Below, one piece after another: positions 2,184 through 44,579 of a DNA stretch of 64,000 bases; position 1 is the stretch's first letter, and each line of letters opens with the position of its first letter. The stretch is taken from contig NC_091941.1 of assembly GCF_041260155.1 (NCBI RefSeq), positions 39,256,747 to 39,320,746 on the forward strand. The letters run 5' to 3'. The notes under the pieces are model-generated. The model made no database searches and was not told the DNA's origin. It saw only the letters and a program-made list of their open reading frames with translations. A program made the position numbers and the translations under genes. The DNA is from Ptychodera flava. Lineage: Eukaryota; Hemichordata; Enteropneusta; Ptychoderidae.

Positions 2184-5100
2184 TCATTCAACAAGAAGTT
2201 CATGCATTTCAATATCATCAAACTGTGCATTAATCTTGGCAGTCCAGTCTTCAATGTCAACTTTCTGAAATTAAAAACAGAGAATGAAACATCATTCTAA
2301 GAACTATGACAGTTCAAGTCACACCATAATAATACTTGAATTTGAAAATTCTGTCTGGATTTAAATGCTAACATAACTAGCAACTTGTGTACACTGATGA
2401 AAAATTTACTTTTGACAAATGTTAATATGTAAAGTACTACATGTACAGATATCATATCACTTTTATCCTAATTTCTATATGATCATCCATCAAAATCTAA
2501 ATATTGCTAACATACAGCTTTCCAAGCAGTAGATCCATATCAGAAAATTAAAAACAGAAGGATTAATGATCAGTCCTTAGCAGAGATTTCTGCTGTGAAA
2601 AGAAACAAAGACTCACCTGTTTGGCACTTATCTTTTTCTTTCTAATTCTCTTTGCTGGCCTTTCAATGGGAATATCAAACACTCCTTGCCCTGACTTGCG
2701 TTTGACTGGGGACATGCTGGGGTTAGAGAAGCCTGTCGTTGAATTCTGTGTCATGCTGTATACACCAGATGATGATGCTGTTGACAATGATGTGAAAGAT
2801 GTTGGGGAGGTAGGATGTACAGGAGAGAATGGCAGTGGTTCTGGAGTCATCAGACTTTCAAATCCAAATAATGATTCTTCAACTGGTTTTTCTTTGACTG
2901 TGCTACTTGGTGTTGATGCATCTGAGGCACAAAGTCTCATAATTCTTTGTACATCAGGTGACATGAACATTCCACTGTCATTTTGGCTTGGTTGTTGGCT
3001 GATAGAGCTGTTACTTGATTTCCTTGATGATGAATAGGTCTTCTTATATTTCTGTTTTCCTGTGCTTGAAGATTCTGAGTTGGAAAACAGAGAAACAAAT
3101 GTTACAATTCTACAGTGATAAAAGATGTAACTGCTTTTTCATAGGATGCATAAAAAGGACCCAGCTTACACTATCACTATTTGAGTTAGAAACTTTGATA
3201 CAGAATAATACCTTGCCAAGTTGCAATGCCCAGTAACTTTTCCATGAATGACAGTATAAACAGGATTGCATAGAATCAACTCCATGCCTCTTCAGAAAAT
3301 TTCAAAAAAATTTAATATTATCAGCAAATAAAAGTCAGCATGTCTACCTTTATTACTTTTGAAACTTTGTCCTCTAGTTGGCGAAAGGATCTTTCTTCTG
3401 TCATGATCCATTTCCTGTGATGACGGTGATGACAATGACGACTGTGACAGGGATCTCATTCCATCTGATTGACTGTATACTTCACTACTATTTTCCATGT
3501 CCCCATCATATGGATCAGTGCTCTGATATAGCAATCATGCATTGTAACAAAACAGAGTAATTCAAATTCTTATGTAAGAGGTGATTAGTACCTTGTTCAT
3601 AATTCAACAGATTTCTTGATCCAGTCATATTCATTATGTCTGTACATGACTCAATGGCACACATTGTTGCAATACTCAGTATTTTCCTCAGAGAAACTTG
3701 GGTAAAATGACTTAAACTGACTATAGCAGGCAGGTATTTTATGTTTTTTTAAAAGAGATACCATAGAAATTGTTTATTTCAATGAAGAATCATGGTACAA
3801 GTATGATAAATAGTGAGCACCTTGCTTTGCCAGGTGTTCAATACTATTCCTTGCATAGTTTATCACAGGCCTGGTCTGTCAAGTGTGATTAGTTGTGCAC
3901 GTATCTCACTAATATGTATTGACAGTGTTTATCTGTGAAAGGATTATTGCAATACTGATAGCAACATCCAAAGTAATAAATACAGTATCATCACAAAAAA
4001 GAAACAGGATAAACACAAACTTGTCACTATCATAACAATCACTGAAAAGTAAAAATGACACACTTGCTATGTTGTTCTTCTACGACTTGGTTTGAAACTT
4101 TTAAGTGGGCCAGTCCCCGTTGTCAAAGGTTACAATGATTATACACTTTGTCAGTGTCAGTGAATGTTTATGGTAATTAGACCAGAATAACATGCTTTCA
4201 TACTGAGATACAGTTTTCTGCAAATTGATCACTGATTAACACTCAATAAACTCACAATTATGTCTAATTTTTTTTAAAACAGCTTTGCCATGAATCTGTG
4301 ATGAGGATACGGGAAATGAGAGAAAAATGCAGTGGATTAGCCTGCTAGAAGTTACAAATTTCATTCATTTTTCATAAAAGATTCATCATCGTGACATTTG
4401 AAAAGTGCTTTCATATAATTGAAGAAAAGTAACACTGTAATGAAATACAACGTACCAGGTATTTATCATTCTCTTTGAAGTCATAGACATCAACCTCTGT
4501 ATCTGTACTGGATTTCTGTTCATGTATAAAAATAAAAGTATATTTTAGAAGTCTGAAGCAAAGATCCAATACAATGCTCAATCATTTAATAATGCAAGAT
4601 GCTCAACTGTAATATTAATGATTATGGATATGAGATAGGAGCGTATATGTTTCATCAGCAGAGAATATAAGCAGTCAGTCATCCAGCTGCAAGGAATTCA
4701 ATCATATCACTGTAGTTGATGTTCCTTTGAATTAATCAGGTTCCTCATATTTGCATAACACTTAAGGAGTTGCTAGTTCAGACAAACGATTGTTGTCTCA
4801 TCATTTTATTTTCATCTTTCAGTGTTTCCTAGGATTTTCTGGTAGAGTGATGGCTAATTTACATAATAATAAATATAATTGTTATGGTAATGAATTTCTA
4901 TTGTTTACCAAAAATGAAAGAGTGGCGGCCACCACTCTATAATTGCTGTGGGTAGAACATTGATCTTTGTTTACATGCTTTCCCATGAAAAAACTCAGAA
5001 AATTCTCGCTGCAAATTTGAAAAGTTTAAAGACTGCATTGTTTGGAGCAAGAGACTTACCACAGAAAAGCGTTTACTTGATAATCTGTGCAACACAACTT

Positions 5101-8100
5101 TAGCAGAATAAGGATCCTTTTCGTCGGATGAGGATTCTGAAATAAAGAATATGATCATAAACCCCTTCTGAGTTCATAATGTTCAATTGTATTGAGAGAT
5201 GAATCTCGCGAAACCTTTTATGACTATTGTTTTTATCTATTTTTACACTGTTATCAGGCAAACTGAAAGTGTATTTAATTGTCCGAGGTAAACATCCTCT
5301 TTCTCTCAGTAGTCAAGCTAAACAGGAGGGAAAGTGATGGATCTTGGAAAGAAACATATAAAATCTTTTGTGTTATATATTGGTACCCTTTCTTATTTAC
5401 AACCGTTTCCATGGGACAAAGAACGTCTACATATTTATTGGGATCATGATGTACTGAAGCGTCAAATTGGTACAATGTTTTATGCTTGTCAGTATTTGAA
5501 TTTCCATACAACATTCACAAGTGTGTCACATTTTCTCTAAACGACAAATTTCCAAATGAAAAATGAAATATATAACACACAGAGTATGAAGAAGTAATCA
5601 ATAATGACAAATGGTCTGCACTATTGTCATGTACTATCTGGAATCCTAAATCAGAACCTATGAATTTGGCAAGTGAAAGATAAACACTAGAAGCAGTCTT
5701 GCAACCTCATTTAAGATTGACATTACTTTACCATACAATTTCATGTGGTGACACCATAAAAGTTTATTGCCAGCTGTTTACTGACATTACAGAACACTTT
5801 GGAAAGTGCAGTCTAACAAGTATAAATAACTGAATACAATATCAATTTATCATCATCATCATCGATGGTGTAGATGATGTAATTTAAAAATGTTCAGTTG
5901 TAACTGTTGGCTACTCTAGCACTAAACAACAACAATAACAAAGTAATAATAATAATAAGAGACAGACACACAGTGTTGAGTCAAAGCTAACAATGGATAC
6001 TCAAGGGTAGCCTCGTTCCCACGATATCCAACACAGCCTCGAATCTGCCCCATTTAAATTACAATAAAACAAGTATTATTGCACACGAATAAAGGCCTGC
6101 AACCACTGCTGTTACATGTTGGGGAGGCCACATAGCAGTAGTGGTTATTTTGCAAGTGAAAACTTGTCATCCGTACTCAAAATGTATGAAAATTTCTCTC
6201 TCTAAACTAGAACTATACATGTCCTACAGATATAATTCTTGATGTCAAGTAGGCATTCAAGTAATTCTCAAAAATCAGAACTTAAAATTCATAATTATAA
6301 TCCAAATTATTATTTTTCCCCATACAATGGGATGTTCTATCATCATGTAAATCGGTCAAACATGAACAATTATTATTGCTTTGATATCAGTGATACGATG
6401 CAAGTTATCCTGGACTTTTGTCTGTAAGATTGATAATGACAAATACATGTAGCAGAGAAAATATTTCTGTTATTGAAGCATTCAATATGAACTCATTCAG
6501 GTCAGAGCGAATACTAATTTGTTGAATAACGGTCCCTGGAATTGTAATTGTTTTCATAACTACTGTGAATAAAATCTCACAATCCTGAAAAGCAACTTTG
6601 TAGTTAGTGTATTTCATCCAGTTGCAATAGTGTTGATCGCGATTTCAGGTTTGTTACTCAATATAGCTGCCTAAATTTCAGACAGATTTTGTTGTTGTAT
6701 GTGGCTGTTATTGCATCTTGCAGTCTTAGCCATAAATTGACTTTTAGTAGCCATTGTAACACTAGCAGGTTTTAATTTCATCGTTTATGCGGAAAATGCA
6801 GACAAATATTATTCATGTCTGCAGGAAAGGTTTCTACGCACTATCTGGAATTGGCAAGATCTGCCCATTACTGGACAAAACTACAACGGAAAAGATGGTT
6901 CATGCATTCATTACGTCTCAGCTTGATTATTGTAATAGTCTCCTGTATGGTGTTACTAAGACTCAGCTGGATGGCCTACAATCATTTCAAAATGCTGCGG
7001 CTCATCTCGTCTCCCGGACTCGTAAATTCAATCACATCACACCTGTCACTTCTTGATATTATTCCACTGTTCGGCCATTCCACTTCAACAAGGGAGGGTG
7101 TATGGCACACTTTCAATTTAAAAATAAAGAAGCTGGCGCAGGTTTTCACGATTTGAAGAAAGTTCATGTTTAAGTTAAGTATGGTGGTTGATGTAAAACA
7201 TAGGCTTGAGTGTGTAAAATGGGTGTGTTTTTGTGTTTTAAAACATAACCTCATCCCTTTGCGAAAGTTATGGGACCCGCCAAAAAATCAGGTCAAAATA
7301 CTCGTGCTGCGCCAGCATTTGATTTCAAATCGATCGAGTATGAACAGTTGAGAGCATTAAGCAAGCAGCTCTGCAACAGCTATGAATGCAAAATGGGTAT
7401 AGCAACCATGCCTGTCTGTTTATATCCTTTATAGCATGTATGATAATACATATACCACGGTATCATACTGATGGCGCAAATGCAGTGATCTAATTGGTTG
7501 AGACGTCAAAAGAACCATGGTATATTGGCTATAGACCATGGTTGGCACACGCGCAAACTCTCAGCAAGTGCAATTTATCATCTTTTGACATTTCATCCCA
7601 GAATTTCAATATACTGTCTGTTATGATACAATAGTAATAAAGTATACCCAGCAACCGTATGCCACGAGATTTTGACCAGCTCGCACTCACTATTGCTCGT
7701 GCATATATGTCGTGAACTGGTCAAAATCTTGTGGTATACCATTGCTTGGTGTGCTTTATTGCTTAAATATTACATTAGAGAGGCCAGAGTCAAGATAAGT
7801 GGACACAAACCTACAAAGTTATCGTGGGAGCAATATGACTGATACAACTGCAACATGTACATCCTAACGTTGCTGCAGTTCCGCTGAAAACAACTTTCCG
7901 CCGGTAGTCTACAAGTCGGGTACAGAACTGCAGCAAATATAATGAATTACGGTAAACTCATTCACTCTGTCCCTTATAAAGTGTCAACGACTCTATATCA
8001 GGACACCAGTGAACAGTAGCTGCAGCTGTATAGCTCGAGGTTTTACCCACAGGCCCACGGAACGTTTCGTAGATCGTCGTCGGATGGGAAGTGACTGACA

Positions 8101-8745
8101 CTTGACTGTGAGGCCGAAGGCCGAACCTCAGTACTGTATAAGGTAATCTTATACAGTACCGAGGTTCGGCCTTCGGCCTCACAGTCAGTGTCAGTCACTT
8201 CCCATCCGACGACGATTTCCGAAACGTTCCGTGGGCCTGTGGTTTTACCCGGGTAAGTTGGTCGGACGGCAAACCCAGAGCCGTCGTCCTACCCACATAC
8301 TCTAGCAAAATTTGCTACAGCACTGCATCTGTGCGAAACGCTGCAGGCATCTATCCATTTGCCCCATTCTAGCCCTGCGTACAGGTCTGTGTGTTCCCGG
8401 CGTTATACGGCCTCCACCACAGCCCTGCAACGGTCCATAGAGCCCCATTCTTGCATACCTTGCGCCACAACGAAACACTTACGGCAACGTATATCAGTAT
8501 CATGTAACTGGTATTTCAAAATGTTGTTTGCTAGAATATTGCTGAAGGGGCAATAATGATGAACAGTGTTAACTTTTTAAACTGAATTTACAAAAGGCTA
8601 CCGTGGGAGATGTGCATTGATTTCTAAATTCTATAAACAACAACACTTTCGCGTTACATGATTGTCACTCACCGTGGCCACGAGGTGTTTTCATGCCCGC
8701 ATTTCTCTTGGAAGACTTCACCTTACTCCGTGCTTTTGGTGGCAT
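2184..8745 (-). CDS. CDCA5: Sororin (CDCA5), cohesin protector
   Basis: Sororin binds PDS5 on acetylated cohesin and opposes WAPL, holding sister chromatids together until mitosis. Six exons read on the minus strand: 8673-8745, 5060-5136, 4456-4515, 3348-3522, 2617-3074 and 2184-2264. All junctions are GT-AG and in phase, giving 307 aa (human 252). Three hallmarks are visible: a KEN box (APC/C degron) at residues 64-66, an FGF motif in LFGFESL at 198-200 (human CFGFEGL), and a C-terminal sororin motif at about 282-307, DIEDWTAKINAQFDDIE then LLVE, close to human ELDEWAAAMNAEFE...LLVE. The first 25 residues are basic, and many Ser/Thr-Pro sites (for example MSPVKRK, LSPTRG) fit Cdk control. 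I chose the ATG at 8745 because it is followed by a basic N-terminus and a good donor. A further small exon in the 3.5-kb first intron cannot be excluded. The gene is head-to-head with TRPT1. Confidence 0.93.
6787..7056 (+). mobile_element. LINE reverse-transcriptase 3' fragment (CR1/Jockey group)
   Basis: An 89-codon frame in sororin intron 1 contains TTEKMVHAFITSQLDYCNSL, then LYGVTKTQLDGLQ and QNAAAHLVSRTRKFNHITPV. This is the conserved segment after the catalytic core of CR1/L2/Jockey-type non-LTR reverse transcriptases (usual form: LVHAFITSRLDYCNSLL...QNAAARLV...HITPVL). Only this piece is left; both ends of the ORF are missing and the following LHWLP motif is not in frame. It lies antisense to sororin. 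It is a dead fragment with no host role inferred. Confidence 0.85.
7633..7763. repeat. Hairpin MITE-like inverted repeat
   Basis: Two arms of about 47 nt (7633-7679 and 7717-7763) are imperfect reverse complements. The inner parts are CCACGAGATTTTGACCAG and CTGGTCAAAATCTTGTGG, around a spacer of about 37 nt. A diverged relative with the same CTGGTCAAAAT core is at about 17878-18005. No ORF. It looks like a small non-autonomous DNA element. Confidence 0.7.
8048..8242. repeat. Long near-perfect palindrome (about 92-nt arms)
   Basis: The left arm runs from CACAGGCCCACGGAACGTTT through CGACGACGATC-like sequence and GGCCGAAGGCCGAACCTC to GTACTGTATAA. The right arm is its reverse complement with only a few mismatches and a spacer of about 6 nt. 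Shorter palindromes (GGCCGAAGGCC) nest inside each arm. It sits in sororin intron 1, about 430 bp from the first exon. The flank TAGCTCGAGGTTTT also occurs in the palindrome at 53514, suggesting one family of foldback elements. Confidence 0.85.
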
Positions 8746-9122
8746 TCTTTTAAAAGTCACGTCTTTGGTTTTATAGCGGTATGAGTTTAGTTTTAGGCTA
8801 ATTGGACACACGAAAGTCAAATTTTCCCTGACAAAAACCCAAAACGCGGACTTCGAACCAAAATGGCTGCCTAGTTTGAATAAACCGCGCATCGAACGTA
8901 ACACTCCTATGACGTCATGGAGCGCCATCAATGTCGCGCTGGTGCGTTCAAAGGCTGGGTCAAAGGTTATTCTGATTTCGCCAGAGCTTGAAATAATTCA
9001 AGTAAATAAATGTGAAACCGAAAGGGCTCACACATGCAGCTATACTTGGATTAACCTGGCTTACTGCCTGAAAGAGTTCATAAGTGACATCCAAATTTCA
9101 ATCTTTCGACGTTTTTTTAACG
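8746..9122. promoter_or_regulatory. Bidirectional promoter, sororin / TRPT1
   Basis: Only 377 bp separate the two divergent start codons, so both genes probably share this promoter. The interval is richer in GC and CpG than its surroundings. It holds a perfect CRE palindrome TGACGTCA (8910-8917), a YY1-like AAAATGGCTGC near 8870, E2F-like AAAACGCGGA near 8841, and TTTGAA at 8875-8880, which matches the CHR element of G2/M genes and would suit sororin. Motif roles are inferred from known consensus sites. Confidence 0.6.
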
Positions 9123-10394
9123 ATGGCGTCACGTTTCGAACAAACAACTGACAGACAACGCGGAGACAGATCTTACCAACGTCATCGCGGTGGCAGTGCA
9201 CATTCACATAGTTCGGCAGCAGATGACGGATGGTCAAAACGCAGAGGTGGCAGAGGTCACACTGCTAAAGAAGGAAGGGTGAGAATCTGGATAGACTAAA
9301 CTCGTCAAAGGATCGACTTTCTAAAATAATTTTGTTGGAGCACGGAGTTATTAATTCCTGACTTGCTGCAGTCGTGGCAGGAGGCTATTAATAATAATTG
9401 ATTTTGACAGCACTGTCTTCATCATTAGTTGAGACATTGTAAGGGAAAAAGAGTTAGAAGATGAACTGATGTGAAATAGAGGAAAATTGGTAAAGAAAAC
9501 ATATTAATTCTTCATTACTTTTTACATCCAAGGGTTTCCGTGATGGCCGTGATGTTAACTCAGCAAATCTCTGTCCTGGCTCTTCAGACAAGGTGCAGAA
9601 AAAGAAGGTCTTCAATTTGATAAAGGTATGAACTACATTTTCAAGGTGAAATGGCATTCATTGCATTGTGTGCCATATCAAAATTCTCAGTTATCAAACG
9701 AGAATCACGACGAAAGCTGTTTAGTCATGACAAAAGATGTTAATCATACAATTTATATACCATTTACACTGTTATATGAAAGACTGTTCAGTATTTTGTT
9801 TTTCTATCAGAAACCTCATGTTCCTATACTTTCATGTTCACTCTTGGATTGGTTTGTGTAAGCAAACCACCTATCCATGATTTATTTCTGTACTTTTGTT
9901 ATCATTCTCAAATGGCTATGCCATGTGATCAGTCTTAAAGACAAGATAACATGGATTCACCAGGCTATCAAAGAACTTAACACTAAATTCCGGTTTCTTT
10001 GTCTTCATAACAGGAGGATATCTCAACGTGGAAGATATCCTAGCTGTACGTGGATTCAACATATACACAGCTGCAGATATAGAAAGACATGTGAAAAATT
10101 ATGACAGCCAGAGATTTAGTTGGAGAAATCACCCCGAGAATAACAAACTGCAGATTTGTGCAAATCAGGACTATACCCCAAAAGTAAGTCTCAGAAAACA
10201 TTTATCGTCAGGGAAATCCCAGCATATGTCTTATTGGTAAAATGTACTGTACACTACGTTGAGTCGGATTGATTCAGTGTTGGACAGAACAGTGTCATTC
10301 TACATTGTCTTGTTATAATGTGTTGACCTGGATGGATTCTATAGTCACATACAGTAAATGGTAACCCCGCCATCCACAGTAACATGTTACCAAC
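9059..10394 (+). repeat. Tandem segmental duplication, unit A
   Basis: This unit (about 1.34 kb) and unit B (10430-12357 with a later 617-bp insertion) are collinear and nearly identical through exons, introns and flanks. They start near TACTGCCTGA and end at CAGTAACATGTTACCAA. Only about 36 bp separate the units. High intron identity means a fairly recent duplication, far younger than the split from the third exon 2-3 version at 12427-12978, whose introns no longer align. Confidence 0.9.
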
Positions 10395-13300
10395 ATAGCT
10401 TTTCTTCGATAAACGAGGCTTTAATATATACTGCCTGAGAGAACTCATAAGTGACATCTAAATTTCAATCTTTGGGCGTTTTATGGCGTCACGTTTCGAA
10501 CAAACAACTGACAGACGACGTGGAGACAGATCTTACCAATGTCATTGCATTGGCAACTTGCACATTCACATAGTTCGGCAGCAGATGACGGATGGTCAAA
10601 ACGCAGAGGTGGCAGAGGTCACACGGCTAAAGAAGGAAGGGTGAGAATCTGGATAGACTAAACTCGCCCAAGGATCGACTTTCTAAAATAATTTTGTTCC
10701 AAGCACGGAGTTAATTCCTGACTTGCTGCAGTCGTGGCAGGAGGCTATTAATAATAAACTGATTTTGACAGCACTGTCTTCATCATTAGTTGAGACATTG
10801 TAAGGGAAAAAGAGTTAGAAGATGAACTGATGTGAAATAGAGGAAAATTGGTAACGAAAACATATTAATTCTTCATTACTTTTTACATCCAAGGGTTTTC
10901 GTGATGGCCGTGATGTTAAACTCAGCAAATCTCTGTCCTGGCTCTTCAGACAAGGTGCAGAAAAAGAAGGTCTTCAATTTGATGAAGGTATAAACTACAT
11001 TTTCAAGGTGAAATGGCATTTATTGCATTGTGTGCCTTATCAATAATTCTCAGTTATCAAACGAGAATCATGACAACAGTTGTATGATGATATAATTTAG
11101 ATATCATTAAAACTGTTATGTAAAAGACTGTTCAGTATTTTGTTTTTCTATCAGAAACCTCATGTTCCTATACTTTCATGTTCACTCTTGGATTGGTTTG
11201 TGTAAGCAAACCACCTATCCATGATTTATTTCTGTACTTTTGTTATCATTCTCAAATGGCTATGCCATGTGATCAGTCTTAAAGACAAGATAACATGGAT
11301 TCACCAGGCTATCAAAGAACTTAACACTAAATTCCGGTTTCTTTGTCGTCATAACAGGAGGATATCTCAATGTGGAAGATATCCTCGCTGTACGTGGATT
11401 CAACATATACACAGCTGCAGATATAGAAAGACTTGTGAAAAATTATGACAGCCAGAGATTTAGTTTGAGAAATCAACCCGAGAATAACAGACTGCAGATT
11501 TGTGCAAATCAGAACTATACCCCAAAAGTAAGTCTCAGAAAACATTTATCGTCAGGGAAATCCCAGCATGTGTTATTGGTTGTACGTACTGTACACTACG
11601 ATGAGTCGGATTGATTCAGTGCTGGACAGAACAGTGTCATTCAGCTTTTTCTTGTTATGATGTGTTGACCTGGATGGATTCTATAGTCACATACACACAG
11701 TAAGTGAGACCACCCACAATTCTCCATGATCTGTACACACAGAGATCACTCACTGAACTGAAGCAAATTTCATCTGTATACAGAACAGCTTGGTCCATAT
11801 TTCGAAATTCTGGGACCATAGTTTTGATAATCATAATTCTCTAATTTCTCACTGTGAATAATGAGAAGATCAACCCCTTTTCTGCGGAGGAGATAGCAAT
11901 TTTGTGATTTTGTCAACATAGTTTTTTGACAGCCATATGCAATATTTTCAAGGAAACTAAGGGAATAAGTTGCATCTATATTGGCAAAAGAAAGGGTATT
12001 GATTTTTTTGAATGTTAGTAACAAAGGAAATTTGCATGTCTGACAGGTGGTATGATGAGACCATCTTAGTTGCTGATAACTTTACCTTGACAAGTGTACA
12101 ATTTTTAGCACCTTCAAACGTGAAATTCTTATTCAATTTACTCCTGAACTTTAAACATAATCAATAATTTTGGACCATAGTTTAACCAATAATTCTAAAA
12201 TCAAATTTTAAGTTTCAAATTGTTCAGAAACTGATAAAATTGAAGAAGCCTTTAGCAAATAATGTCTGATCACACAAATCAAGGGGAATTGTGGGTAGTC
12301 TCACTTACTGTGATACAGTAAATGGTAACCCCGCCATCCACAGTAACATGTTACCAAAGATACAGATTGTCATTTGATCAATATCATTGATTCATGATCA
12401 TGCACTTTTTACATTGTTCTTTGCAGACGTTTCATAGCTCTCATGATAATGACGTTAAGCTTAGCAAGTCATTGTCATGGCTTTTAAGACATGGTGCTGA
12501 AAAAGAAGGGTTTACATTTGACGAAGGTTTGTATATATCAATATTATCATGAGAGTCTCATTTGAATGAATACTACATTTCATTTCATGTGAAAAATTAT
12601 GAGTTTTATCTGCAAGGTGATTTTGTTAAGATTTTTGTCAACATAACCTGTATTTGAGTAGATTTCTGCAGTCCTTCAGACTTCAGGTATTTACTGCCAT
12701 CTTCAAATACTGCATGCAATTCTTTCAGTAATCCTAAATCAGAGATTGTAATGCACTTGTTCTATCTCAAATACTTAAGTGTAAAGTATTTTTTCATTTA
12801 TATTACAGGAGGTTACATTAATGTTGATGATATCCTGGCCCTTCAGAGATTCAAAGTACACACAACTGAAGATATCGAAAGAATTGTCAAAAATAATGAC
12901 AAACAAAGATTTTGTCTCCGAAATCACCCAGAAAGTAACAAATTACAGATTTGTGCCAATCAGGGCCACACCATAAAAGTAAGCAACTTGAAACACTAGT
13001 GTTTATTGATCTTATTGACAAGGTCAATGATGTACAGACACATTGTCAATGGTGGTGGTTACTACTGTTTTTCTGTTGCTTATAGTAGTGTTCACATTTT
13101 CTTAGACTGCCCCCAGTCGCTTGGCTTGTCTTGTCAGAGCAGTTACTCTCTGGCTAAGCAACTGGTGTACCTTGCAAATGCCCTCTAGTGTCACAAGCGA
13201 TCTGGCCGTTTGCTGACATAGGCGTAGTACGTAAGCAAATGATTGACAATGACTTCGACTTCCGTAGCAAACTGTTTACCACAAGAAGTAATCTTAATTA

Positions 13301-16300
13301 GTACCTGATAGTTATCTAAACTTGATAAGGGATGTTTTCTGGTCTTTGCATGATTATAGATGAGCATAGGCATGCAGAAAATGATCAGGAAATTAGGCTT
13401 GACATAGCACTCATACTACACAGTGCAGTAGTAATGGGCCTCCGTGTTCCATACATGCATGGTTGTCAGTCTGACTTAGACAAGTTGATAATGTACCCGA
13501 TTTGAGAAACAGAAGTCAAAAAATTACCGCATTGAACATTCTTGAAATAAAACTTACCATAATGAGAGTAATAAAGAAACATCATGTAATTCAATGGTTG
13601 CTACACTATTCCAAACCCAAATCCTGCAAGGTTCACAAGTCTGTGGGGCAAGGTGTTCACCCCACGATCTAAGCACCAGCCTACCACCTAGCCTGACAGT
13701 CTGCCGAAGTTCATCCCTTCAATTTATTGTGTCTTGATATTGACAGACTTGGAGCAAATCTAACATTTTCTGTAAGAATATGATTTACTTCAGACGTGCT
13801 GTGTGTATGAGACAGACAGAATAACATAAATGATTTGTGAAATAATGTTGATTGCTATCAACATCAACTGAAAAATGATAAATTTCTTCTACATGAAATG
13901 TCATCATGAATATACAAAAGCTCCTTTACAAAGGTTCCATACAAGGAATGGTTCCTTTTAACAAAGTACATATAGACTGAGCAGCAATTATCTATACAGC
14001 TTGTGTTATTAATGCTCATTCATTTATTGATGTACTGGTGTATATTTTGGTGTGAGTGTTTAGACAAGGATCACTTGATAGACGTCAAACATTCTATATA
14101 ATTTGGCGTTTCCATCAATGGAATAGGATTATTATTTCTAGATGAAATATGCATGATAGAAAGCTGTTTATAAATTATGAAAAGTATAAAGCTAATATTC
14201 AAGTGTGCCATCAATCTATTTCATAGTATCTTTCTTGTTGAAATTTGAGTTAGAATAGCATTAGAAATTTCAGATGTTTTCAAATACACCAAACACTCAA
14301 GTGTAACTTAACTGTTTAATCTCTCAGTAGTGTTACAGGATATTTTAGTAAATGTTGTGATATTTCAACTGGATTCCTACATTCTCAAGGCTTAGTGACA
14401 ATTTATTTGTTTCAGTAGAGGTTAGTGATTATTGTTAATGTGGAAGATCATTTGAAAGGAATTGTTATTGTCCTGAAAGTGATGCAAGCACAAGTTTTTG
14501 TCATCCTAATCCAAAATAACAAGTATCAACCAATTGAATATTTTGGATCTCTATGAAGTTAGAAACCTTCACAAATAAAATATAACAATTTTCAGTCTCT
14601 AACGATAAATTGCACCAATTCAATAAAATGTTAATATCGCAAACAGAATGTTACTTTGCAAATTGAGTTCATTAATGCTGAGCTGTAAGTTTTTCCAAAT
14701 ATTTCAGGTTGAAGGCTTGCAGTTGACACCAATCACTGATCCAGCCCAGTACCCAACAGTCACCCATGGAACATATTGGAAGGCATGGGAAATAATCAGG
14801 GAACAGGTAGTTTTCCTTCACATTTCCTTGTTATCGGATAGGACTTGTTTTGAATATAGGAGTCTACATATGTAGCAAAGACTGTCTCTTTTGAGTTCAG
14901 GATCAGACCTCTGTATTCAATCGATGTAGGAGTTCAAAGATTTCAATGCATTCTATAAGAACCTTTATAAACCTTTATATGTGTACAGACAATGAGATTA
15001 TCTGTGTACAGATAATGAGATTATCTAAAAGTTTGCAATATTGCATTTCTTTGTTACATTGATCCATGAATGGGAAAAGTGAATTATTTACATAACTATG
15101 ATATTTTTCTTGTCTGGGCACGTACCTCAGTCTTGCGATGAAGTGGACTTACTCATGTCAAAAGCCTGTTCCAAAGACTTGTACTGATTCCAAAGCTTTT
15201 TGAACAGTAATTCCACTGTCCAATGAGTTCTGTTCAAAATCAGAATTATGCCAGCAATTGACCCACATTGCAAAAACAGTGTGTTTCATCATGTTATAGT
15301 ATAGTGCAAGCATCTTTTTCAATTTCTAACTAAAAAGCAAAAAATGATGTCATCATTACTCACTGCAGTGTATCTGTTCTCATTGATTTCATACTTACAC
15401 AGGGATTGTCCAAAATGAGGAGAAATCACATTCACTTTGCACCAGGAGTACCAGGAGATGAGGGTGTCATTAGTGGTAAGAATGTACAATGAGATAGTCT
15501 TGTTGGGCAAAACTCTTTGCAATTTAGTGCTTGGTTGGGACGACTGCATGTGATTTTACTTTTTGTGATCTCATAAATAATGACATTATTCATATCCTGG
15601 GATTAGATATTATGCAGTGTAACACATATTATTATACATCTACAATCGAGAACAAAAGAATTTTGCGTGCGTTAAAAAAGCCGTATGGAATTTTCTGTAA
15701 CACGTACGGTTTCAAGGCACCCCATCCCCCGCGGCTGTATCTGCACGTTCACTGTTGAACGGTTTCAAAAGACTCATTGGACGAGTGCCAGAACATGTCT
15801 CGCACGCTCTGTACGTACGTGTGTAGTGCACACACACAATCCAGAACTTGCAGAAGCGCGTCCGAGATAGCGTTCCACACTTGCGCTGTAAATTGGAAGA
15901 AAAATTGTTGACATTGTACGAAAACAGCTACTATTCTGACAATTTGATGCCCCAGTCACCAATGTAAGATGTATAATAATAAGGTTATTACGAAAATACC
16001 TTAAAGGGTGCACGAGGACATTGGCGCAGCGTATCGCCCGACGTGAAGCGGAGGGCGGTATGCGGCGCCAATGTCCAAGTGCATCCTTTACGGTATCTTC
16101 GTAATAACCTCATAGGATAGTATTTGTCACAATGTCATGAAACAAATATGACTGATGTAACATCGCTTTCCAAATACATCCCATAGAAATCCCATGTGGT
16201 TACCCTTGAAATCAATAATCTCTCATGAGATACCATTGGGGTTTCTGTAAGACGATAGGGTGCATACCATGCGGTGCTATCTTAAAATTACACTCTGAAA

Positions 16301-17156
16301 GCCACTAAATGTACAGGGATTCCAACGTTCCTCTCTTGTGTTTGGTGGTATTCATTTTTGAAAAAATGCTGTCAAAACTGGTGACAGTGAAAAATTGAGT
16401 TCACACAGCTTAAGGCTAGGAACAGTTACTTTCTGCTTTATTTTACTTTCACTTTTATCTTCATAAGTATTTTCCATGTCTAAATTTATGGTCATTTATG
16501 TTTTTCTTTAGGAATGAGGAATAGCTGTGAAGTACTTATTTTTTTGGATATGGAGAAAGCCCTTGAAGGTGGGTTTACTTTTGACATGTAGATTACATTT
16601 GTGAGCGTAGTCACATAGAATTGTAACAATTACACATCAAGGTAATGATAAATGTATACTCCTATCAGCAATGGAATTTGCATGTAGAATCTTGTATATT
16701 CCCGTGGCTGCTATTACAATTTTCTTCACACCTTATTCATCAACTACCATAGATAACATTTAAAATCTTTCTCTAACACAAGTTCGTGAGCAAAATTTTC
16801 AATACATTTTGTTCTAGATGGCCTGGAATTCTTCATATCTGCAAACAATGTGATCCTTTCAAGTGGCAATGTAGATGGATTAATTTTACCAAAATACATC
16901 AAAGATGCCATACAGTTACATCCACGTACGTATCTTTACTGTAGTAGCATTATGATGACAAGTGAATGTTTTATGTGTCCAAGATACCAAATGTGAAACA
17001 TTTACAGTGATTTTGATGCACATGACAAGAATGCACTAGGTCTTGAAAAATGGTATATCATTTTCTCACAAATGATACTTCCAGTATTTTATCACGTAAT
17101 AGTTTATCCTTTGTCTCTCTACAGGAAGAAAACTTCCTCTTGGAGCAACATCATAG
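9123..17156 (+). CDS. TRPT1: tRNA 2'-phosphotransferase (Tpt1/KptA family)
   Basis: Tpt1 removes the 2'-phosphate left at the splice junction of ligated tRNAs and transfers it to NAD+. The best full-length model uses exon 1 at 9123-9278, then 12427-12526, 12809-12978, 14708-14806, 15403-15475, 16512-16568, 16818-16925 and 17125-17156. All are GT-AG with matching phases, giving 264 aa (human 253). The four essential residues of the family are present: Arg-His in [12 protein letters not shown], Arg in NDKQRF, and Arg in [27 protein letters not shown] and [14 protein letters not shown] also match. The N-terminus is Arg/Gly-rich (SKRRGGRGH). Between exon 1 and the used exon 2 lie duplicated versions of exons 2-3 and of exon 1, listed separately. 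No ATG exon or separate promoter was seen for the third cassette, so exon 1 at 9123 probably serves it. Confidence 0.9.
9533..10183 (+). pseudogene. TRPT1 duplicated exons 2-3, copy A
   Basis: Exon 2A (9533-9625, 93 nt) and exon 3A (10014-10183, 170 nt) match the functional TRPT1 exons 2-3 in junctions and protein ([24 protein letters not shown]). Exon 2A is one base shorter than copy B: it reads GTTAACTC where B has GTTAAACTC. It therefore leaves the family frame, and joining 1A-2A-3A hits a stop within ten codons of exon 3A. Even in the family frame the catalytic Arg-His would be Arg-Gln (AGACAA), and GH of NQGH is DY. Copy A is probably skipped or gives non-productive transcripts. Confidence 0.8.
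10483..11527 (+). pseudogene. TRPT1 duplicated exons 1-3, copy B (exons 2-3 still open)
   Basis: Exon 1B (10483-10640, 158 nt) has two extra bases relative to exon 1A near 10537-10548. It ends out of phase and would run into a stop at the start of exon 2. Exons 2B (10894-10987, 94 nt) and 3B (11358-11527, 170 nt) are intact and splice-compatible: phase 0 in, phase 0 out. They encode [20 protein letters not shown] and [14 protein letters not shown] then [11 protein letters not shown]. The catalytic His is Gln and the GH of the NQGH motif is NY. A transcript 1A-2B-3B-exon 4 would be in frame, as would 1A-2B-3B-2C-3C with two N-terminal domains. Whether B is expressed cannot be told from sequence. 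Confidence 0.75.
11691..12317. mobile_element. 617-bp non-autonomous DNA transposon, Transib/RAG-like ends
   Basis: The element spans 11696-12312. Its terminal inverted repeats begin CACAGTAAGTGAGAC and match over 27 nt with one mismatch. It is flanked by 5-bp target duplications ATACA (11691-11695 and 12313-12317). Unit A of the host duplication carries the empty site with a single ATACA (TCACATACAGTAAATGG), so ends and target duplication are certain to the base. A 5-bp duplication with CAC-starting ends is the signature of the Transib/ProtoRAG superfamily (the RAG heptamer is CACAGTG). No transposase is seen; an 84-codon frame inside matches nothing I know. Confidence 0.88.
15980..16114. 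repeat. Hairpin MITE-like inverted repeat in TRPT1 intron 5
   Basis: Arms of about 60 nt: the left starts AAGGTTATTACGAAAATACC and continues AAGGGTGCACGAGGACATTGG, and the right is its reverse complement with several mismatches. A GC-rich spacer (CGACGTGAAGCGGAG) separates them. No coding potential. It resembles a palindromic MITE. Confidence 0.8.
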
Positions 17157-27000: not shown

Positions 27001-28251
27001 TTTTCACCTATTTGGTTGGGTATGTTATGCCAGGTTTTGTCAGTGAAAATTATATTTACAGTTACATAAGTATTCATGGGCCTTCAAATATTCAATGTAT
27101 GGGACCTGTTATGCCTTTTTTACTAGTTCTATATGGAATTCTCTTACATTAGATGGAATTGGTTATTGTTGTAAAAACACAAAAAAATGAACAAAATTCC
27201 CGAAATAGGGTGTCACATTGTTCATCATGTAGCAATTTACAGCAATATCAGTAATACTTGAAAGTTCTCAGTGAAAAGAATTCGGAACCGAAATTCGGAA
27301 CTATGCCTGACCTTATTTCGATCCATTTGATTTCTCGGGTGCGTAAGCTAATCACACTGATCGTTATACACCCCATGGAGGTTTTTTCACATCCATGTAC
27401 ACCATGGTACAATATTCGCGAGCGTAGCTCTATGGTGAGGCGGTCGGTGAGTTTTTGATTTTTGGGACCTCACTCACCAGTAGCGCTACAATACAGATGA
27501 TGAAATTTTTGTCATCTTAAAAGGGGGGTCATCAATTTTTTGGTACAATGGGTAGGGGGGGTTCACTCATTTTGACTGATGCGCAGGAAGAATTTGCAGG
27601 CCCACCCGGCCATAATAACTGAACGCTCCCTTACCCAGCTCACGCCTTTGAAAAATGTGCAACGCACACAAACTTTATTACAAAACACACAGTTGCGGAT
27701 AAAACATTTTCCAAAGTACCTTCATCTTTACCACAACTGAATTTATGCCCTTCTTTCCAATCAATCATTTGATGGTTACGACTGCAGTAGTTCGTTTCGT
27801 GGCATTTACCACACCTCTTGGGTCCCAGACATCCACACACTTCACACATGCGCTGTTCGAAATCGACAGGATTGACTGGTTTGCTGTCTTCGCTCTCTGT
27901 GGGAGGATGATAGCTGTAATAATCGTTTTTTCGGGGTAACTGACTCCTAAAAGCGGCAAACGGTAAGTTGCTGTTTGGTTTATAGCATTCGGCACTGCGA
28001 CAGCAGAACACGAAAACTGTCCTGTGAAAACAAGTTTTCAGTTCATTGATAGGTGCATAGATTTGGAGAAGAAATGTGTACGGATTCTTGCAACAGCTAC
28101 ATTGTAGAGATTCTGGCAACGGTAGATTTTTAAGATGCAGCCATGACGGTTTTCCACCGAACTTACATGGGAAATATTTACTGTTCAAGCGCCAACCGTG
28201 AGTTTTTTCGGCAAAACCGAGCTCAACATCACTCTTACTGGACGCAGCCAT
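21082..28251 (-). CDS. PDCD2: Programmed cell death protein 2 (PDCD2), MYND zinc finger
   Basis: PDCD2 is a conserved protein that acts as a co-translational chaperone for ribosomal protein uS5 (RPS2) in 40S biogenesis. Four exons: 27720-28251, 26043-26305, 25658-25771 and 21082-21270, in phase, 365 aa (human 344). The N-terminal half begins [13 protein letters not shown] and KFGGKPSWL, with paired cysteines [10 protein letters not shown] and [14 protein letters not shown] finger spans about residues 136-173 ([20 protein letters not shown], then [18 protein letters not shown]). The C-terminal PDCD2_C domain shows [40 protein letters not shown] and [20 protein letters not shown]. The acidic linker around 180-230 is lineage-specific. 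The last intron (4.4 kb) contains the long-TIR element. The start is the first ATG of the PDCD2 N-terminus and lies head-to-head with the gene at 28408. Confidence 0.95.
22680..22766. repeat. Palindrome with 40-nt arms inside the long-TIR element
   Basis: CCTACGAGTATGGCGAGAGT and the following 20 nt (22680-22719) return as a reverse complement at 22727-22766 with one mismatch and a 7-nt loop. GC-rich against an AT-rich host, it is probably a small element nested in the larger one. Confidence 0.85.
23892..23924 (-). ncRNA. Hammerhead-ribozyme-like core, minus strand
   Basis: The minus strand reads CTGATGA (23924-23918), then A, a 6-bp stem GGAACC / GGTTCC with an 8-nt loop, and GAAAC (23896-23892). 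This is the conserved hammerhead core around stem II. The extra A after CTGATGA is shared with the motif at 44111. Stem III is very short or missing, and stem I and the cleavage site are not certain. Self-cleavage is unproven. Confidence 0.5.
23933..24163 (+). CDS. Small open frame inside the long-TIR element
   Basis: A 76-codon frame ([20 protein letters not shown], then [20 protein letters not shown]) with ordinary amino-acid composition lies next to the inner edge of the right arm. I do not recognise it. It could be one exon of an element-encoded gene or a chance frame. A 12-C tract follows at 24185-24196. Confidence 0.3.
   Translation: MFCIPSAWLCDEVIFVLEEEKPNSLLREFRELATLLTDYSERSGVWCHIVINMTQHRPEFLDAYKDFCFRAYFERC
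24209..24418 (-). CDS. Helix-turn-helix-like small protein or first exon in the long-TIR element
   Basis: This 69-codon frame starts just inside the right terminal inverted repeat, as a transposon gene's first exon would. It reads [20 protein letters not shown], then [16 protein letters not shown] and [20 protein letters not shown]. The spacing of charged and hydrophobic residues suits a helix-turn-helix DNA-binding segment (first helices of an integrase- or transposase-like protein). No catalytic domain follows in the core, so the element looks non-autonomous. Family unknown. Confidence 0.4.
   Translation of the reverse strand: MELSSLVSEEFMRQMVVFEGKTHREIACTLKDLFPDHNLSGLSERSVRRFCEIHEIKRRRATRQTMTND
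27505..27630. mobile_element. Solo end of the PIF/Harbinger-like element seen at 37502
   Basis: In reverse complement this starts GGGAGCGTTCAGTTATTATG and runs through TTCCTGCGCATCAGTCAAAA in step with the left end of the 37.5-kb element. Only about 125 bp of one end remain, in PDCD2 intron 1. TTA follows the outer end, as expected for that family's target site. Confidence 0.8.
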
Positions 28252-28407
28252 TTTTGTTTGAAGGTCCGCAATATCTTTCCTCCGGAGAAACTAGGCGTTT
28301 ATTGGATAAAATGAGTCACGTTACTGCTAATGACCCAGTGCCTTCTTGAGTGCTGCACATAGGAAAACATAGTACTCACTAGGAAGAGACAACCACCACT
28401 GGTCATC
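28252..28407. promoter_or_regulatory. Bidirectional promoter, PDCD2 / 102-aa gene
   Basis: Only 156 bp separate the divergent start codons, so the pair must share core promoter sequence and both 5' UTRs must be short or overlap. It contains TGAGTCA (AP-1-like, about 28313) and TCCTCCGGAG near 28278. No TATA box is obvious. Confidence 0.55.
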
Positions 28408-35079: not shown

Positions 35080-38000
35080 TCACGACATTCTCAATTTATT
35101 ATTGATTATCCATTTCTGTTTTGGATTATTCTCGTCGCATTTCAGCATTTGAATTCTAAAGCGTCCCGTGTCCAACTCTAAGCACATCTTCTTGTCTTCC
35201 AGATATATCCATCTTTTTTCCTGCAAGATGAAACAATAACAAAGCTATTTAGTTACTGTTGATGTTCTGATAATAGACGTGGACATGTACTACGATGTCA
35301 AGAACTGAGCGTTCTGTGATTCGGAACCACATGACAAAGGAAAAACAATCTCAGAAACGAATTTCTCGATTTGTGCGATTTTTTCTTTTTTTGAACTATA
35401 GGCCCTAAATGGTTGGTTCGTACCTTTAGTTAACTATTTATCTCCTTTATTAAAGACCATAAACGAATGAACAACCTTTAAAATAGTTATTTTTGAAATT
35501 TACTTGTTTCCTAAAAAGTTAAACATACCTTGTCAAAATTCCAAGTGTACTTTGTATGCCCATCACAACGACGCAATTTGATTTCCTGGTGAATCTCATA
35601 CAAACACATTTCGTTTACTCTGAATTCACGATCAGCTGTTATTCGGAAGAGTTGATTTCCACCCTGACCATGACATCCAGAGACACCAACACGACCACCT
35701 TCCCTGCTTCCCATTGTGTCCACGCACAGACTACGAACCTCGGATTTTATCTGTGAACGTGAGAGAAACATCAGAGAAATACAAAGTATTCAGCAATAGG
35801 CCGCACGAACATTGCAATTTCAAGTGGACTTCTCTGACTTGAGACGTTTTACATGTAAGCCTGTGGACCCGGAGAGTTTCAACATCCTGTATCGCTCTTA
35901 ATTTCTCTTTTTGACGTTACATGAAACTGTATTTAAAAGTTATTAATGTAGCTGAAACAGCCTAGTAGACCAGTCAGTAAAATACACGACATAATTGTTT
36001 TATGACATGGAAACACGAAATTGCCATCCGATAGATCAATATCGCAAGAAGACTTTGACTTTGTTTCCGTAGCAACCGGTGATCCAACAAGTTGCAATAT
36101 TTCTAGCTCAACTCAAAAAAGAGAAACCGGCAGCGATACGAATGATTCGATTGACGCGAAAAACGACGATGTCACTTTTTGTTAAAATATCTATGACTCT
36201 TACTTCACCCCATCCAAGATTAGCTCCTGGGAATGGATACGTATCCAGCAGATCTGGTGCTACCTCAGTCATAAACCAGTGGAAATTTTTACACTTGTGT
36301 TTTTCCTTGAATTCCAACTGTGCACTGATGTCGCCGTATGTTAAAAGCTGGGATTCTGGTTTACTCCTGTAAAAGTACTCCTTGTAATCATCCATCCACA
36401 CTTCGACTACACGTCTGTAATTCTACGAGTCAAGAAAATGATTTAGAGATATTTCTCATGAACAATATGTGCCAGACGTCATTTGAATGGACACGTTATC
36501 AACTGCGATATGATGCCGAAATTACTATCCCCCAAACTTGTAGGAGATGCTATTATTATTCGACTGACCATGACGAACTTGAATGTGCTTGAACGCTCGT
36601 GTGGAATTGCACAAATTACAGGGGACTGATGTTATTTATTCGATTCATATTCAATAAAATGCATTGCAGGTATGGTTAAACATTACGTCATATATTTAAA
36701 ACTTACCCTAATTGACCATTGTGTCATGGTAGCGTTTGGAGCTCGATAGGGCACTTTACCAAGTATTCGGTACACATGACCAACTCTTGAACAGGGAACC
36801 CATAGCATAGACCCGCCACATTGCCAAATCTGGTGTGAAAAATGAAAATCGTGAGACATTCCCTTCGGATTATTTGCAGTGTCCCATTATCTATATGTCA
36901 ACTGAAAGTTGGGAGTTTCAATCAAAGTGAAAACTGCAACGAAACATTGTTGACAGAGAAAACCTTACGAGACGCGTAATAATCATGTTTTATTTCATTT
37001 CACAGCGAGACTCTAGAACAATGTTATCCCAAGTTTACGACATCAACGGCTCTCGATTATACTTTTTAAGAATGAAATGACATCCCTTAAACCATAAACG
37101 CGGCGGAGAATTACATGTACCTTGAAAGATAGTTCGAAATTTTCTCCTCCCCAGACTTCAAGTCCAGGATCATAGGCACCGAGTTCAAAGAAGTAGTCCC
37201 TTGCCATCGCAAACAAACCGCCGGCCATTGCTGGAGACCTGTATTCAACAATGGAAATCAATTACTACATGCTGATTAGAAGCAATAAGGGAAAGTATCC
37301 CACTTTCAGTTACAGTAACATTTAAAAACAAAGATGAAAAGAAGAAAGTTTAGAAACTCGTCCTGCAATATTTCTTCTATGGATGGAAAATCTCGAGTTC
37401 TAAAATTAGTAATGCGGTCAATCCAGCTCTATACCTCAATGAAATTACGTTGCGGATAAATACAGCGGTTTAAAACTAAGCAGAAAAGGTCGCAAAACTT
37501 AGGGAGCGTTCAGTTGTTATGGCCGGGGGTGGGCCGGCAAATTCTTCCTGCGCATCAGTCAAAATAAGTGACCCCCTACCTATTGCACCAAAAATTGCTG
37601 ACTCCCCCTCTTAAGATGAAAAAAATTTCATGACCCTCCCCCCAATAGCTTGAGTATTAAGCTGCACACACAAACACCTCGGGGGATACAATCCCAAAAA
37701 AACTAGATTCTAAGATTTTTTTAAATGACTCTCCTTACAAACTCACAAGGTGTTAATGTTCAAATTTCCCCTTCTGATTTGCTATAATGTTGAAATTACC
37801 CCTCAAAGGGATTGGACAGAAGTTACAGGTGGTTCGCAATATTTTTGCGCAAGCTTGTGTGTACAAAATTTGATATTTGGACTTAATTGATAATCAGCTG
37901 TTGATAATGTTGATTCACTATACAAGGTAGTGTATGAGAAAACTGTGTAATACTTTTTCAATACAAAACTATACCTATGCATTATAGATATTTGATGATT

Positions 38001-41000
38001 GACATAAATGTACTTAATTGGACTAGGGTTGTTACAACAGGTATGTGGACAAAAAATTTGACTTAGAATTTCACCAAAAATGTCTATCCATTATACATGG
38101 AAGTCTATGATAAAATTTTGAATATTTTTTCAATGAAAAACTTGCTATACTTGTGCATATACAGACGTTGAATAATTTACATAATGGTACTTTATTAGAA
38201 TATGATGGTAAAAGGTGCATATCATGTGTACAAGAAATCTGATTTTGGAATTTCACTGAAAATGTTCGTCCACTATACATTGGAATCTTTGAGGAAACCG
38301 AATAATTTTTTTCCAATACAAAAATAGGTAAACCTGTGTATTTATGTATTCTTGATTATTAATATTAATGTACTTGATTAGACTTGGGTGGTAACAAATG
38401 GATGTGTTCGCCAGAAATTTGATTTTGGAATTTCACCGAAATGTAGATTCACTGTACATGGGAGTCTATGAGGAAACTATGAATAATTTTTTTCCAGTTC
38501 AAAAATAGGTAAATCTGTGTATTTATGTACTCCCGATTATTAATATTAATGTACTCGATTAGACTAGGGTGGTTACAAATGGATATGTGTGCAAGAAATT
38601 GGATTCTAGAATTTCACCGAAATGTTGATTCGCTATACATGGTAGTCTATGTGGAAACTATGAATAATTTTTTTCCAATACAAAACTCTAAATCTGTGTA
38701 TTTATAGACATTTGATAATTCGTTTTAAAGTACTTAGTTAAACTAGCATGGTTAAAGGTTGATATGTGTGCAAGAAATTGGATCTTGGAATTTCAACGAA
38801 ATTCTGATTCACTTTACATTGGAGACTATGAGAAAACTATGAATAATGTTTTTACAATGCTATACTAAATTAACTTGTGCTTTTATAGATGTTGATAATT
38901 GATACAAATGTACTTGATTCAAATAGGGTATTTGAAAGTTCAGATGTTAACAACAATAATGATATTGGAATTTCACCTAAAAGTATTATTTAACTTTTCA
39001 TGGTACTAGTAGTATACAGGTAACTGTTAAACAATTTCCCCGACAAAACTTGTTATATCTCTAATATGTAAGAAATAGGAATTGTTCATTGCCCTCGGTG
39101 AGCTCAATTTACAATAAGACAAGCCTCAGAGTTGCCAAGTAAAGATGTGACAGATAATTATACTTTTTGTTCAGATTTATAGTTACGTGACTTCAGAGAA
39201 TGAAATCATGCAGCGAATCATTTCATCCCCAAGAATATTTCTGAACACTGAAACTGCTTTTTGACGGGACGGATACTTTTGAAAATTAAGTGACTCCCTC
39301 TGAGCTGTTTAAAAAATACATGCCCCCCTTTGCAGTTTCCAAATTTAAGGTGACCCCCCTGGATTTTGCCGGCCCACCCCGGCCGTAATAACTGAACGCT
39401 CCCTTACGACAAAATAATTTAAAATTGAAATTGTGGTCAGGTAAGTGCAATGAGAAGAAAAGTCAGAAATAACGATCTATCGCCTATAGAGTACCTGTGG
39501 ATCTATCGCCTATAGAGTTTACCTGTGGATCTATCGCCTATAGAGTTTACCCGTGGATCTATCGCCTATAGAGTTTACCTGTGCATCTATCGCCTATAGA
39601 GTTTACCTGTGGATCTATCGCCATAGAGTTTACCTGTAGGGCTCACTTGAACGAGACCTTCGTCGTTTCTCTGCGTCATTCATCGGTAAATGTTTCCAGT
39701 ACAAACTCCAATCAAAGCCTCCTCTTGAAAGTTCACCAGATCCCTGTGGCCGCATGGAATAGTCCATGTTATCGATAACGTCGACAAGTGGTACCGTCAC
39801 GACAGTCCTATATAAGATTATTGAAAATGTGGATAAGTCAAACAGACAAACAATCAAATGACTTAACGATAAATAGAACAAAAGTTTGACTTAAATTGTA
39901 TTATTGCGCTCTACTTCCGTCATGGTAAGACTGGTTACATTACGGTGCACTTATTACGGCGGAAAAAGCAATCACTTTAGAAAACGTAATCATGGTTGCT
40001 CGCCTTTGCTTTTTCTACATCAATCTACGCCAATCACATGATTTAAAGAGGGGGCGGGGGTCGTTGGCCATGAGTGCGACTTTCTTGTTTACAAACAGTA
40101 TATTTCATGCATGATATCTACATCACGTCAACATAGCTGCAACATTGAAATTTTTACGATATTCATTGTTAACAACGTGTTTTAACTTTCACCAATCGCA
40201 TTGTACCCTAGATACAGTGTTTACATCGGTCGTAGGGGTCCCTGGCAACCTTTAAACAGGGTCGGACAACCCCCCTCCCTTTAAACTCTCTTACCTATTG
40301 TTTGCAATTGGTGTCAGCAATGGTGGAAGCCAGTTGTTTCCAACTTCACAATGTGCATCCAACCATACCAACACATCGGCCGTGGCATGCATAGCACCGA
40401 CTGTACGCGTACGTATCAATCCTTCCCGTTTACGGTTCCGAACTAGTCTAAGTTTACCAAGAAACCGAGGCTTTGTTATGTATTCTTCTAACTGCTTTTG
40501 TAAATGTTCTGTGCAAAGAAAGTTTAGAATAACGAAACCCGATAAGCAAGCAACACTCTTAAATTTGGATTTTTCGAGAGATAGTCAGTGAGTATGACTT
40601 TCAAATTTTGACAAATTGTCCGAGGTTGCATTCAATCATATCGCAGAATGGTAATTTCATCATGTGGAAGAGGAAGCTTGCACTTCGATTGTAACGAGTA
40701 ATCTTTCAAAAGTGCCTGATGCAATGAAATTAAGTCAGACAGCAGCGTGGTGGCGAACCGCCTTTCTGGCAATTTGTATGTTTAGTGTTTGTAGAAATTC
40801 ACCATAATAACAGTAGTAAGCTTAAAGATAGCTTGAATTACTAGTGTTTGGTGAATTGTTAAAATACGTCACCTTTATTACTAAAATCGTCGACCAAGAT
40901 GACTTCATGTAGAAGCCTAGGTGGTGTTCTGTTGAAAACACTGTGTACTGTCCTAAGTAGGGTTGACCAACCCTCGTTATGAAAAACTAAAATCACACCA

Positions 41001-44000: not shown

Positions 44001-44221
44001 AAAGTACTTTTTTTAGAGTTTCGCTTTTCGAGTTCGTTTCAATTTTTTAGCTTCCTGTATTTTCTTTCACATGCTTATAGTCTGTTATCCGTTTATTTCA
44101 GTTTTTAACCCTGATGAAGTGGGATTAAGCCCACGAAACGTCGGACAATAAAATTTAGTTTGTAGTGAAGAACACTGTGTCCTAGAGTTGGTGCTGCTTG
44201 ACCTATCCTGTCAATATATAT

Positions 44222-44306
<85 letters not shown>

Positions 44307-44530: not shown

Positions 44531-44579
<49 letters not shown>

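Follow-up and report, generated by a model that had tools for sequence, protein, structure and literature searches.

What becomes of one lobe of a two-lobe enzyme when its exons are copied within the gene and the copies lose residues of the active site? This question is raised by the TRPT1 gene of the hemichordate Ptychodera flava, located on the + strand of a 64,000-nucleotide (nt) stretch of genomic DNA (contig NC_091941.1), denoted here as the window, to whose positions all coordinates refer. Exons 2 and 3, which encode the RNA lobe, exist in three versions (A, B and C), and the tandem units that carry A and B are located in the first-intron region. For this locus a preliminary description had proposed two alternatives, namely a decaying duplication with some shadow of function, or a locus making a second isoform. 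Our results point to the two in succession: constraint on the stem that joins A/B to C (ratio of non-synonymous to synonymous change, omega, about 0.09-0.16), followed by neutral-looking change. The explanation that we favour, with a probability of roughly one half, is that A and B derive from an old alternative RNA lobe that would have been kept for long as protein code while it lost its grip on phosphate, and that is probably now decaying, at least in part.

The Canonical Path and the Additional Cassettes

The canonical path, made of exons 1A-2C-3C-4-5-6-7 (9123-16996), encodes a protein of 277 amino acids (aa) that matches Pfam family PF01885 with 222.4 bits (profile positions 2-177 of 177), and its closest solved structure by sequence is 7yw3, a tRNA 2'-phosphotransferase 1 (E value of 2e-61). 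The Arg-His-Arg-Arg tetrad is complete in this path, corresponding to R13, H14, R59 and R122 of the aligned segment. Clostridium Tpt1 is divided into an RNA lobe (residues 1-85) and an NAD lobe (residues 86-182) (PMC6333775), and alignment to this enzyme assigns exons 2-3 to the former and exons 4-7 to the latter.

The coordinates and reading frames given in the preliminary description proved correct when exon translations and splice borders were checked, as did its account of three splice-compatible versions of exons 2-3. Version C carries Arg-His and NQGH, A carries Arg-Gln and NQDY, and B carries Arg-Gln and NQNY; the Gln is common to A and B, so the loss of the catalytic His predates their separation. 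The two units are indeed broken at different exons, 1B by an insertion of 2 bases and 2A by one missing base, while both 2B and 3B are free of stops. Units A and B are about 93% identical across about 1.3 kb and the 2B-3B lobe alone scores 73.2 bits against PF01885 (101.7 bits for the isolated C lobe), and the arrangement is not due to chance.

The three cassettes are adjacent homologous exons in compatible phases. The donors at 9278, 11527 and 12978 are GT, the acceptors at 10894, 12427 and 14708 are AG, and their phases agree (splice-site strength was assessed by eye). Since both cassettes, 2B-3B and 2C-3C, are in phase 0 at each end, either one or both could be spliced in. Eight combinations of cassettes can be placed between exons 1A and 4; of these, the four that lack A (none, C, B and B+C) stayed open through the final stop, in agreement with the earlier claim that 1A-2B-3B-4 and 1A-2B-3B-2C-3C are in frame. 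The path 1A-2B-3B followed by exons 4-7 encodes 275 aa and scores 191.6 bits against PF01885. Every combination with A (four in all) is cut short by a premature stop, at codon 93, and a message with two RNA lobes is therefore open only when A is skipped. The fact that each enumerated path using 2A-3A is truncated could be taken to mean that the gene is switched off in a regulated manner by including cassette A, in which case the frameshift, the stop at codon 93 and the ensuing decay of the message are the function itself. However, any broken exon would act likewise, and we regard this explanation as very improbable.

Active-Site Residues Lost from the A/B Lobe

What the A/B lobe has lost can be read against the contacts described for Clostridium Tpt1, whose numbering is used here. 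The essential tetrad is formed by Arg18, His19, Arg68 and Arg121, Lys66 and Tyr80 also contact the transferred phosphate, and the nucleobase is held by Ser10, Lys11 and Arg68 (PMC6333775). Five near-invariant residues are missing from A/B: the tetrad His19 is Gln in each of them, Lys66 is replaced by Ser, the Gly-His after the position of Tyr80 has become Asp-Tyr in A and Asn-Tyr in B, and one Leu has become Phe. Ser10, Lys11, Arg18 and Arg68 are retained.

The strength of conservation at these sites was seen in prokaryotic matches to PF01885, which came from 12 of 148 genomes, 12 of 150 genomes and a set of 13 loci; the 41 loci collapse to 37 unique rows, and each count covers those rows in which the site is occupied. 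The His of the tetrad was kept in 32/34 rows, the Lys in 33/35, the Gly in 35/36 and the second His in 34/36, and Leu occupied the position of the A/B Phe in all 34. The two rows devoid of the tetrad His were the weakest matches of their search (28.5 and 34.4 bits). Five outgroups share the same residue at 16 positions of the lobe; of these, 5 were lost in A/B alone and 1 in C alone, and 2 had changed in all three versions.

Whether such a lobe could still support catalysis is answered differently by two homologs. Mutation of the equivalent His to Ala in human TRPT1 (H41A) abolishes ADP-ribosylation of 5'-phosphate RNA (PMC6582358), whereas in Runella Tpt1 the same change makes step 2 only threefold slower, and loss of the Lys is tolerated except for a lower activity at low NAD (PMC6333775). 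Because of this disparity, a loss of activity in the A/B lobe is likely, yet uncertain. Judging from its sequence, the lobe would keep the family fold minus the catalytic residues, and a form built with it would be expected to catalyze the reaction weakly or not at all.

Patterns of Change on the Stem and on the Tips

Was the alternative lobe maintained as protein code after it separated from C? The comparison of B with C by the Nei-Gojobori method (82 codons) yielded a synonymous divergence (dS) of 1.05, a non-synonymous divergence (dN) of 0.17 and an omega of 0.16, and relative to the C lobe no stop or frameshift is shared by A and B. In a codon likelihood analysis of A, B and C, omega was 0.087 on the stem and 0.69 on the tips (log likelihood -538.60). 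A model with one omega reached -541.53, 2.9 log units worse than separate values for stem and tips, and fixing the tips at omega 1 gave -538.69. With tip length left free, holding both tips at 0.09 cost 3.5 log units compared with both at 1; when A was set to 1 and only B was held at 0.09, the cost was 1.7. The codon likelihoods and these omega profiles indicate that the stem is constrained and that the tips, taken together, are relaxed. The comparison of synonymous and non-synonymous change between A and B, recommended in the preliminary description, gave a dS of 0.054 and a dN of 0.030 over 87 codons.

The polarity of the A/B-versus-C differences was judged against three eukaryotic outgroup proteins. 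C is set apart from both A and B at 22 positions; at 15 of them it is C that agrees with one of the outgroups, at 2 it is A/B and at 5 it is neither, which places most of the amino-acid change on the A/B side. This side therefore evolved faster than C, yet well under the neutral expectation.

These data bear directly on the possibility that A and B are plain pseudo-exons, that is, that neutral drift set in fairly recently in a cassette that had been active up to then, with active-site residues lost by chance ahead of the A/B duplication and further decay after it. Each unit contains a disabling change, the divergence between A and B in exons equals that in introns, omega 1 on the tips fits as well as the best value, and the acceptors of 2A and 2B end in AAG, as against CAG or TAG elsewhere in the gene. 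Decay from the first duplication onward, however, was rejected by simulation, as three divergences were simulated in 400 runs each and no run came down to the low non-synonymous difference observed, and the splice sites are still intact. For the later onset, simulations combined a period of constraint with a neutral phase (20,000 runs per setting), and an open frame together with the loss of at least 5 of 13 invariant residues peaked at 0.014, 0.004 and 0.0015 of the runs when indels per substitution were set to 0.05, 0.10 and 0.15, respectively (the A/B introns contain 6 indel events versus 36 substitutions). The rarity of this joint outcome speaks against a late neutral phase, and we consider pseudo-exons unlikely.

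Several points weigh against a long-retained alternative lobe. With A at omega 1 and tip length free, no value for B from 0.09 to 2 falls more than 1.7 log units short of the best one; when the tip length is fixed at 0.024, the best omega is 0.5, and 0.09 costs 1.6 and 2 costs 2.9 (these profiles of present selection on B used equal tip lengths). Exons 2-3 of A and B differ at 9/263 sites and the introns at 36/775 (Fisher p = 0.49), and change after the A/B split looks neutral. The stem omega blends the A/B branch with C's own branch, and the lobe comprises only 82 codons, with dS close to saturation. The residues used in the late-drift simulation were chosen after their loss had been noticed, and C was among the sequences by which the 13 were defined as invariant. 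Finally, a two-exon cassette used exclusively would be an unusual splicing unit.

Origin of the Tandem Units

The borders of the units bear on how they arose. At the left edge of B, 10394-10420 aligns with 9033-9061 (21/27 bases equal, one 2-base gap), a score equalled or beaten in 3 of 300 shuffles; at the right edge, the 45 bases of 10349-10393 are identical to 12313-12357. Considering both edges, B most likely starts directly where A stops, as in a head-to-tail duplication. A non-homologous filler between A and B was considered and dropped, since the stretch aligns to the left flank of A. The 45-base identity contrasts with the adjacent part of intron 3, where 12/155 sites differ, and the identical segment holds an inverted GGTAAC/GTTACC pair. 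Compared in DNA with the exons of A, those of C are 78% identical over 82 positions (exon 2) and 76% over 182 (exon 3), and outside the 45-base segment the introns of C and A yield short matches only. Unit B also harbors a 617-base element that begins with CACAGT and finishes with ACTGTG; because it is found in B only and A has a single ATACA at the site, its insertion postdates the A/B duplication. Its ends are reminiscent of repeats of the Transib/RAG type.

It could be argued that A and B are two haplotypes of a heterozygous animal assembled in tandem, in which case there would be one alternative cassette only. A divergence of about 5% and an element present in one copy could suit two alleles, and the 1-base difference of exon 2A falls within a short run of A, a place of common read errors. 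On the other side, the unit edges resemble a simple head-to-tail junction, and divergence is higher in the 5' flank (6/54) and exon 1 (8/156) of B than in intron 1 (6/251), although intron 3 is also high (12/155) and the numbers are small. Moreover, exon 1 has 8 changes, at 4 of which a CpG of unit A stands opposite TpG or CpA in unit B, with the reverse at 1, so that, small as these numbers are, CpG losses are mostly in B, as would be expected for an unused copy of the promoter and as if that of B were idle. The divergence pattern and the CpG changes thus argue, weakly, for a real duplication rather than for alleles placed in tandem, and we deem the haplotype explanation improbable.

A different origin would be a separate tandem TRPT1 paralogue, selected as a whole, of which the A/B cassette is a remnant that decayed after fusion. 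One deletion, from its intron 3 to intron 1 of the next copy, would have removed exons 4-7 and fused the genes; such a deletion yields the same exon order as a duplication of exons 2-3, and the low stem omega would be accounted for without special splicing. A tblastn search of the window with the part encoded by exons 4-7 recovered the four exons plus 10 matches (E values of 3.3-47), and nothing left over from a second such set was found, a result with which a complete deletion is still compatible; moreover, this origin would still require that the active site was lost under constraint, or a late neutral phase. We therefore hold it to be unlikely, on a par with pseudo-exons. A match running past exon 3C was discarded, since its tail aligns only weakly across the intron and contains a stop.

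A Proposed Model for a Possible Alternative RNA Lobe

Returning to the old alternative lobe, these observations could be integrated as follows. The ancestral gene would have had a single exon 1, an alternative RNA-lobe cassette (the ancestor of 2A-3A and 2B-3B), the canonical 2C-3C and the shared exons 4-7. The alternative lobe would have been long retained as protein code while the phosphate-gripping His19 and Lys66 gave way to Gln and Ser and the neighbouring Gly-His was replaced, with the nucleobase holders Ser10, Lys11 and Arg68, plus Arg18, being kept. The sequence shows the anatomy, the open frames, the residue losses and the constraint on the stem; we infer that this lobe would have been spliced into messages and would most likely have bound RNA, with no or weak support for phosphate chemistry. 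Later, a 1.36-kb segment containing exon 1 and the alternative cassette would have been duplicated in tandem, after which exon 1B and exon 2A broke, and 2B-3B remained open.

In this model, the alternative lobe would either be exchanged for the active lobe or precede it in a protein with two RNA lobes. If all exons were simply spliced together, the lobes would stand in series; the extra lobe would then have no catalytic duty to perform, and its losses would be explained without regulation; an exchange would require a regulated choice, and fits known exon-substitution systems. It is tentatively suggested, as a joint and less probable proposal than the retention of the lobe itself, that the lineage evolved and long kept a spliced TRPT1 form whose exchanged or additional lobe grips the nucleobase and not the phosphates, and that this form acted as a decoy or as a regulatory reader of RNA ends or of ADP-ribosylated RNA. 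Cassette 2B-3B may still make such a form.

Relation to Known Systems

The case is a variant of exon duplication within a well-known enzyme family. The P. flava gene shares with Tpt1/KptA/TRPT1 proteins (PF01885) the order of the two lobes, the RNA lobe being encoded by exons 2-3, and departs from them in having two additional RNA-lobe cassettes devoid of the active-site His, Lys and Gly-His. As in the tandem duplicated exon substitutions of human genes (PMC9741552), neighbouring homologous exons share the same phase and their divergence is old and constrained; here, however, the unit consists of two exons coding for an entire lobe, and its exclusive use is hypothetical. Purifying selection on both alternatives, as expected of such substitutions, is supported for the stem; since the A/B split, exons have diverged like introns. 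Similarly to pseudoenzyme isoforms and paralogues, family similarity is retained and active-site residues are replaced, but here the replacement concerns just one of the enzyme's two lobes, within a single gene.

Human TRPT1 is alternatively spliced, with a skipped exon, alternative splice sites and variation at exon 7 (PMC8153164, PMC4797308), and two further papers mention both TRPT1 and mutually exclusive exons (PMC12856215, PMC6999693). A duplicated RNA lobe of TRPT1 was not described among the titles and opening lines of abstracts listed, a coverage that omits most subscription papers. Animal tRNA ligation leaves no 2'-phosphate and ablation of the mouse gene has no phenotype (PMC6333775), and the reason why animals retain TRPT1 is an open question. 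If the proposed history is true, a lobe without phosphate grip was kept beside an active one, which would suggest that RNA recognition is in itself worth selecting. It would also provide a natural construct to separate binding from ADP-ribosylation and an instance of exon duplication coupled to active-site loss, an uncommon combination in the human survey (PMC9741552).

Features of the Locus and of the Rest of the Window

Table 1. Positions of the TRPT1 exons, the tandem units and the inserted element in the window.
Feature	Positions	Strand	Remarks
Tandem unit A	9033..10393	+	5' flank and exons 1A, 2A, 3A; from alignment to unit B
Exon 1A	9123..9278	+	Start codon and N-terminal tail; intact frame, donor GTGAGA, phase 0
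Exon 2A	9533..9625	+	Frameshifted, one base shorter than 2B; R-Q in register
Exon 3A	10014..10183	+	Open, NQDY
Tandem unit B	10394..12357	+	Carries an inserted element
Exon 1B	10483..10640	+	2-base insertion breaks the frame
Exon 2B	10894..10987	+	Open, R-Q; acceptor ending in AAG
Exon 3B	11358..11527	+	Open, NQNY
Element with terminal inverted repeats	11696..12312	.	617 bases, start CACAGTAAGTGAGAC, flanked by ATACA; absent from unit A
Exon 2C	12427..12526	+	Canonical, R-H
Exon 3C	12809..12978	+	Canonical, KQRF and NQGH
Exon 4	14708..14806	+	NAD lobe begins here; HGT motif
Exon 5	15403..15475	+	Bears the fourth tetrad Arg
Exon 6	16512..16568	+	
Exon 7	16818..16996	+	Ends with the stop; an additional 3' exon is possible

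Intron 5 of TRPT1 contains, at 15979-16113, an imperfect palindrome with 61-nt arms (85% complementary) and a 13-nt spacer. A divergent gene on the - strand (2566-8745) has a putative start codon, read by eye, that lies about 380 bases upstream of that of TRPT1. An open reading frame (ORF) at 2566-3138 on the - strand, perhaps part of this gene, has no Pfam match and contains SLFGFESLMTPEP, which is reminiscent of the FGF motif of sororin.

Farther along the window, GIY-YIG similarity was found in ORFs 43019-43387 (+) and 44108-44578 (-), the first under the Pfam cut-off, and both are perhaps parts of retroelements. On the - strand, the region 35514-41095 includes separate ORFs with matches to Ricin_B_lectin (35514-35789) and Glycos_transf_2 (40862-41095), a combination reminiscent of a polypeptide GalNAc-transferase gene. 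The same strand shows glutaredoxin matches in two ORFs (51778-52032 and 53692-53985) and a MYND finger in ORF 27643-28290, which is reminiscent of PDCD2.

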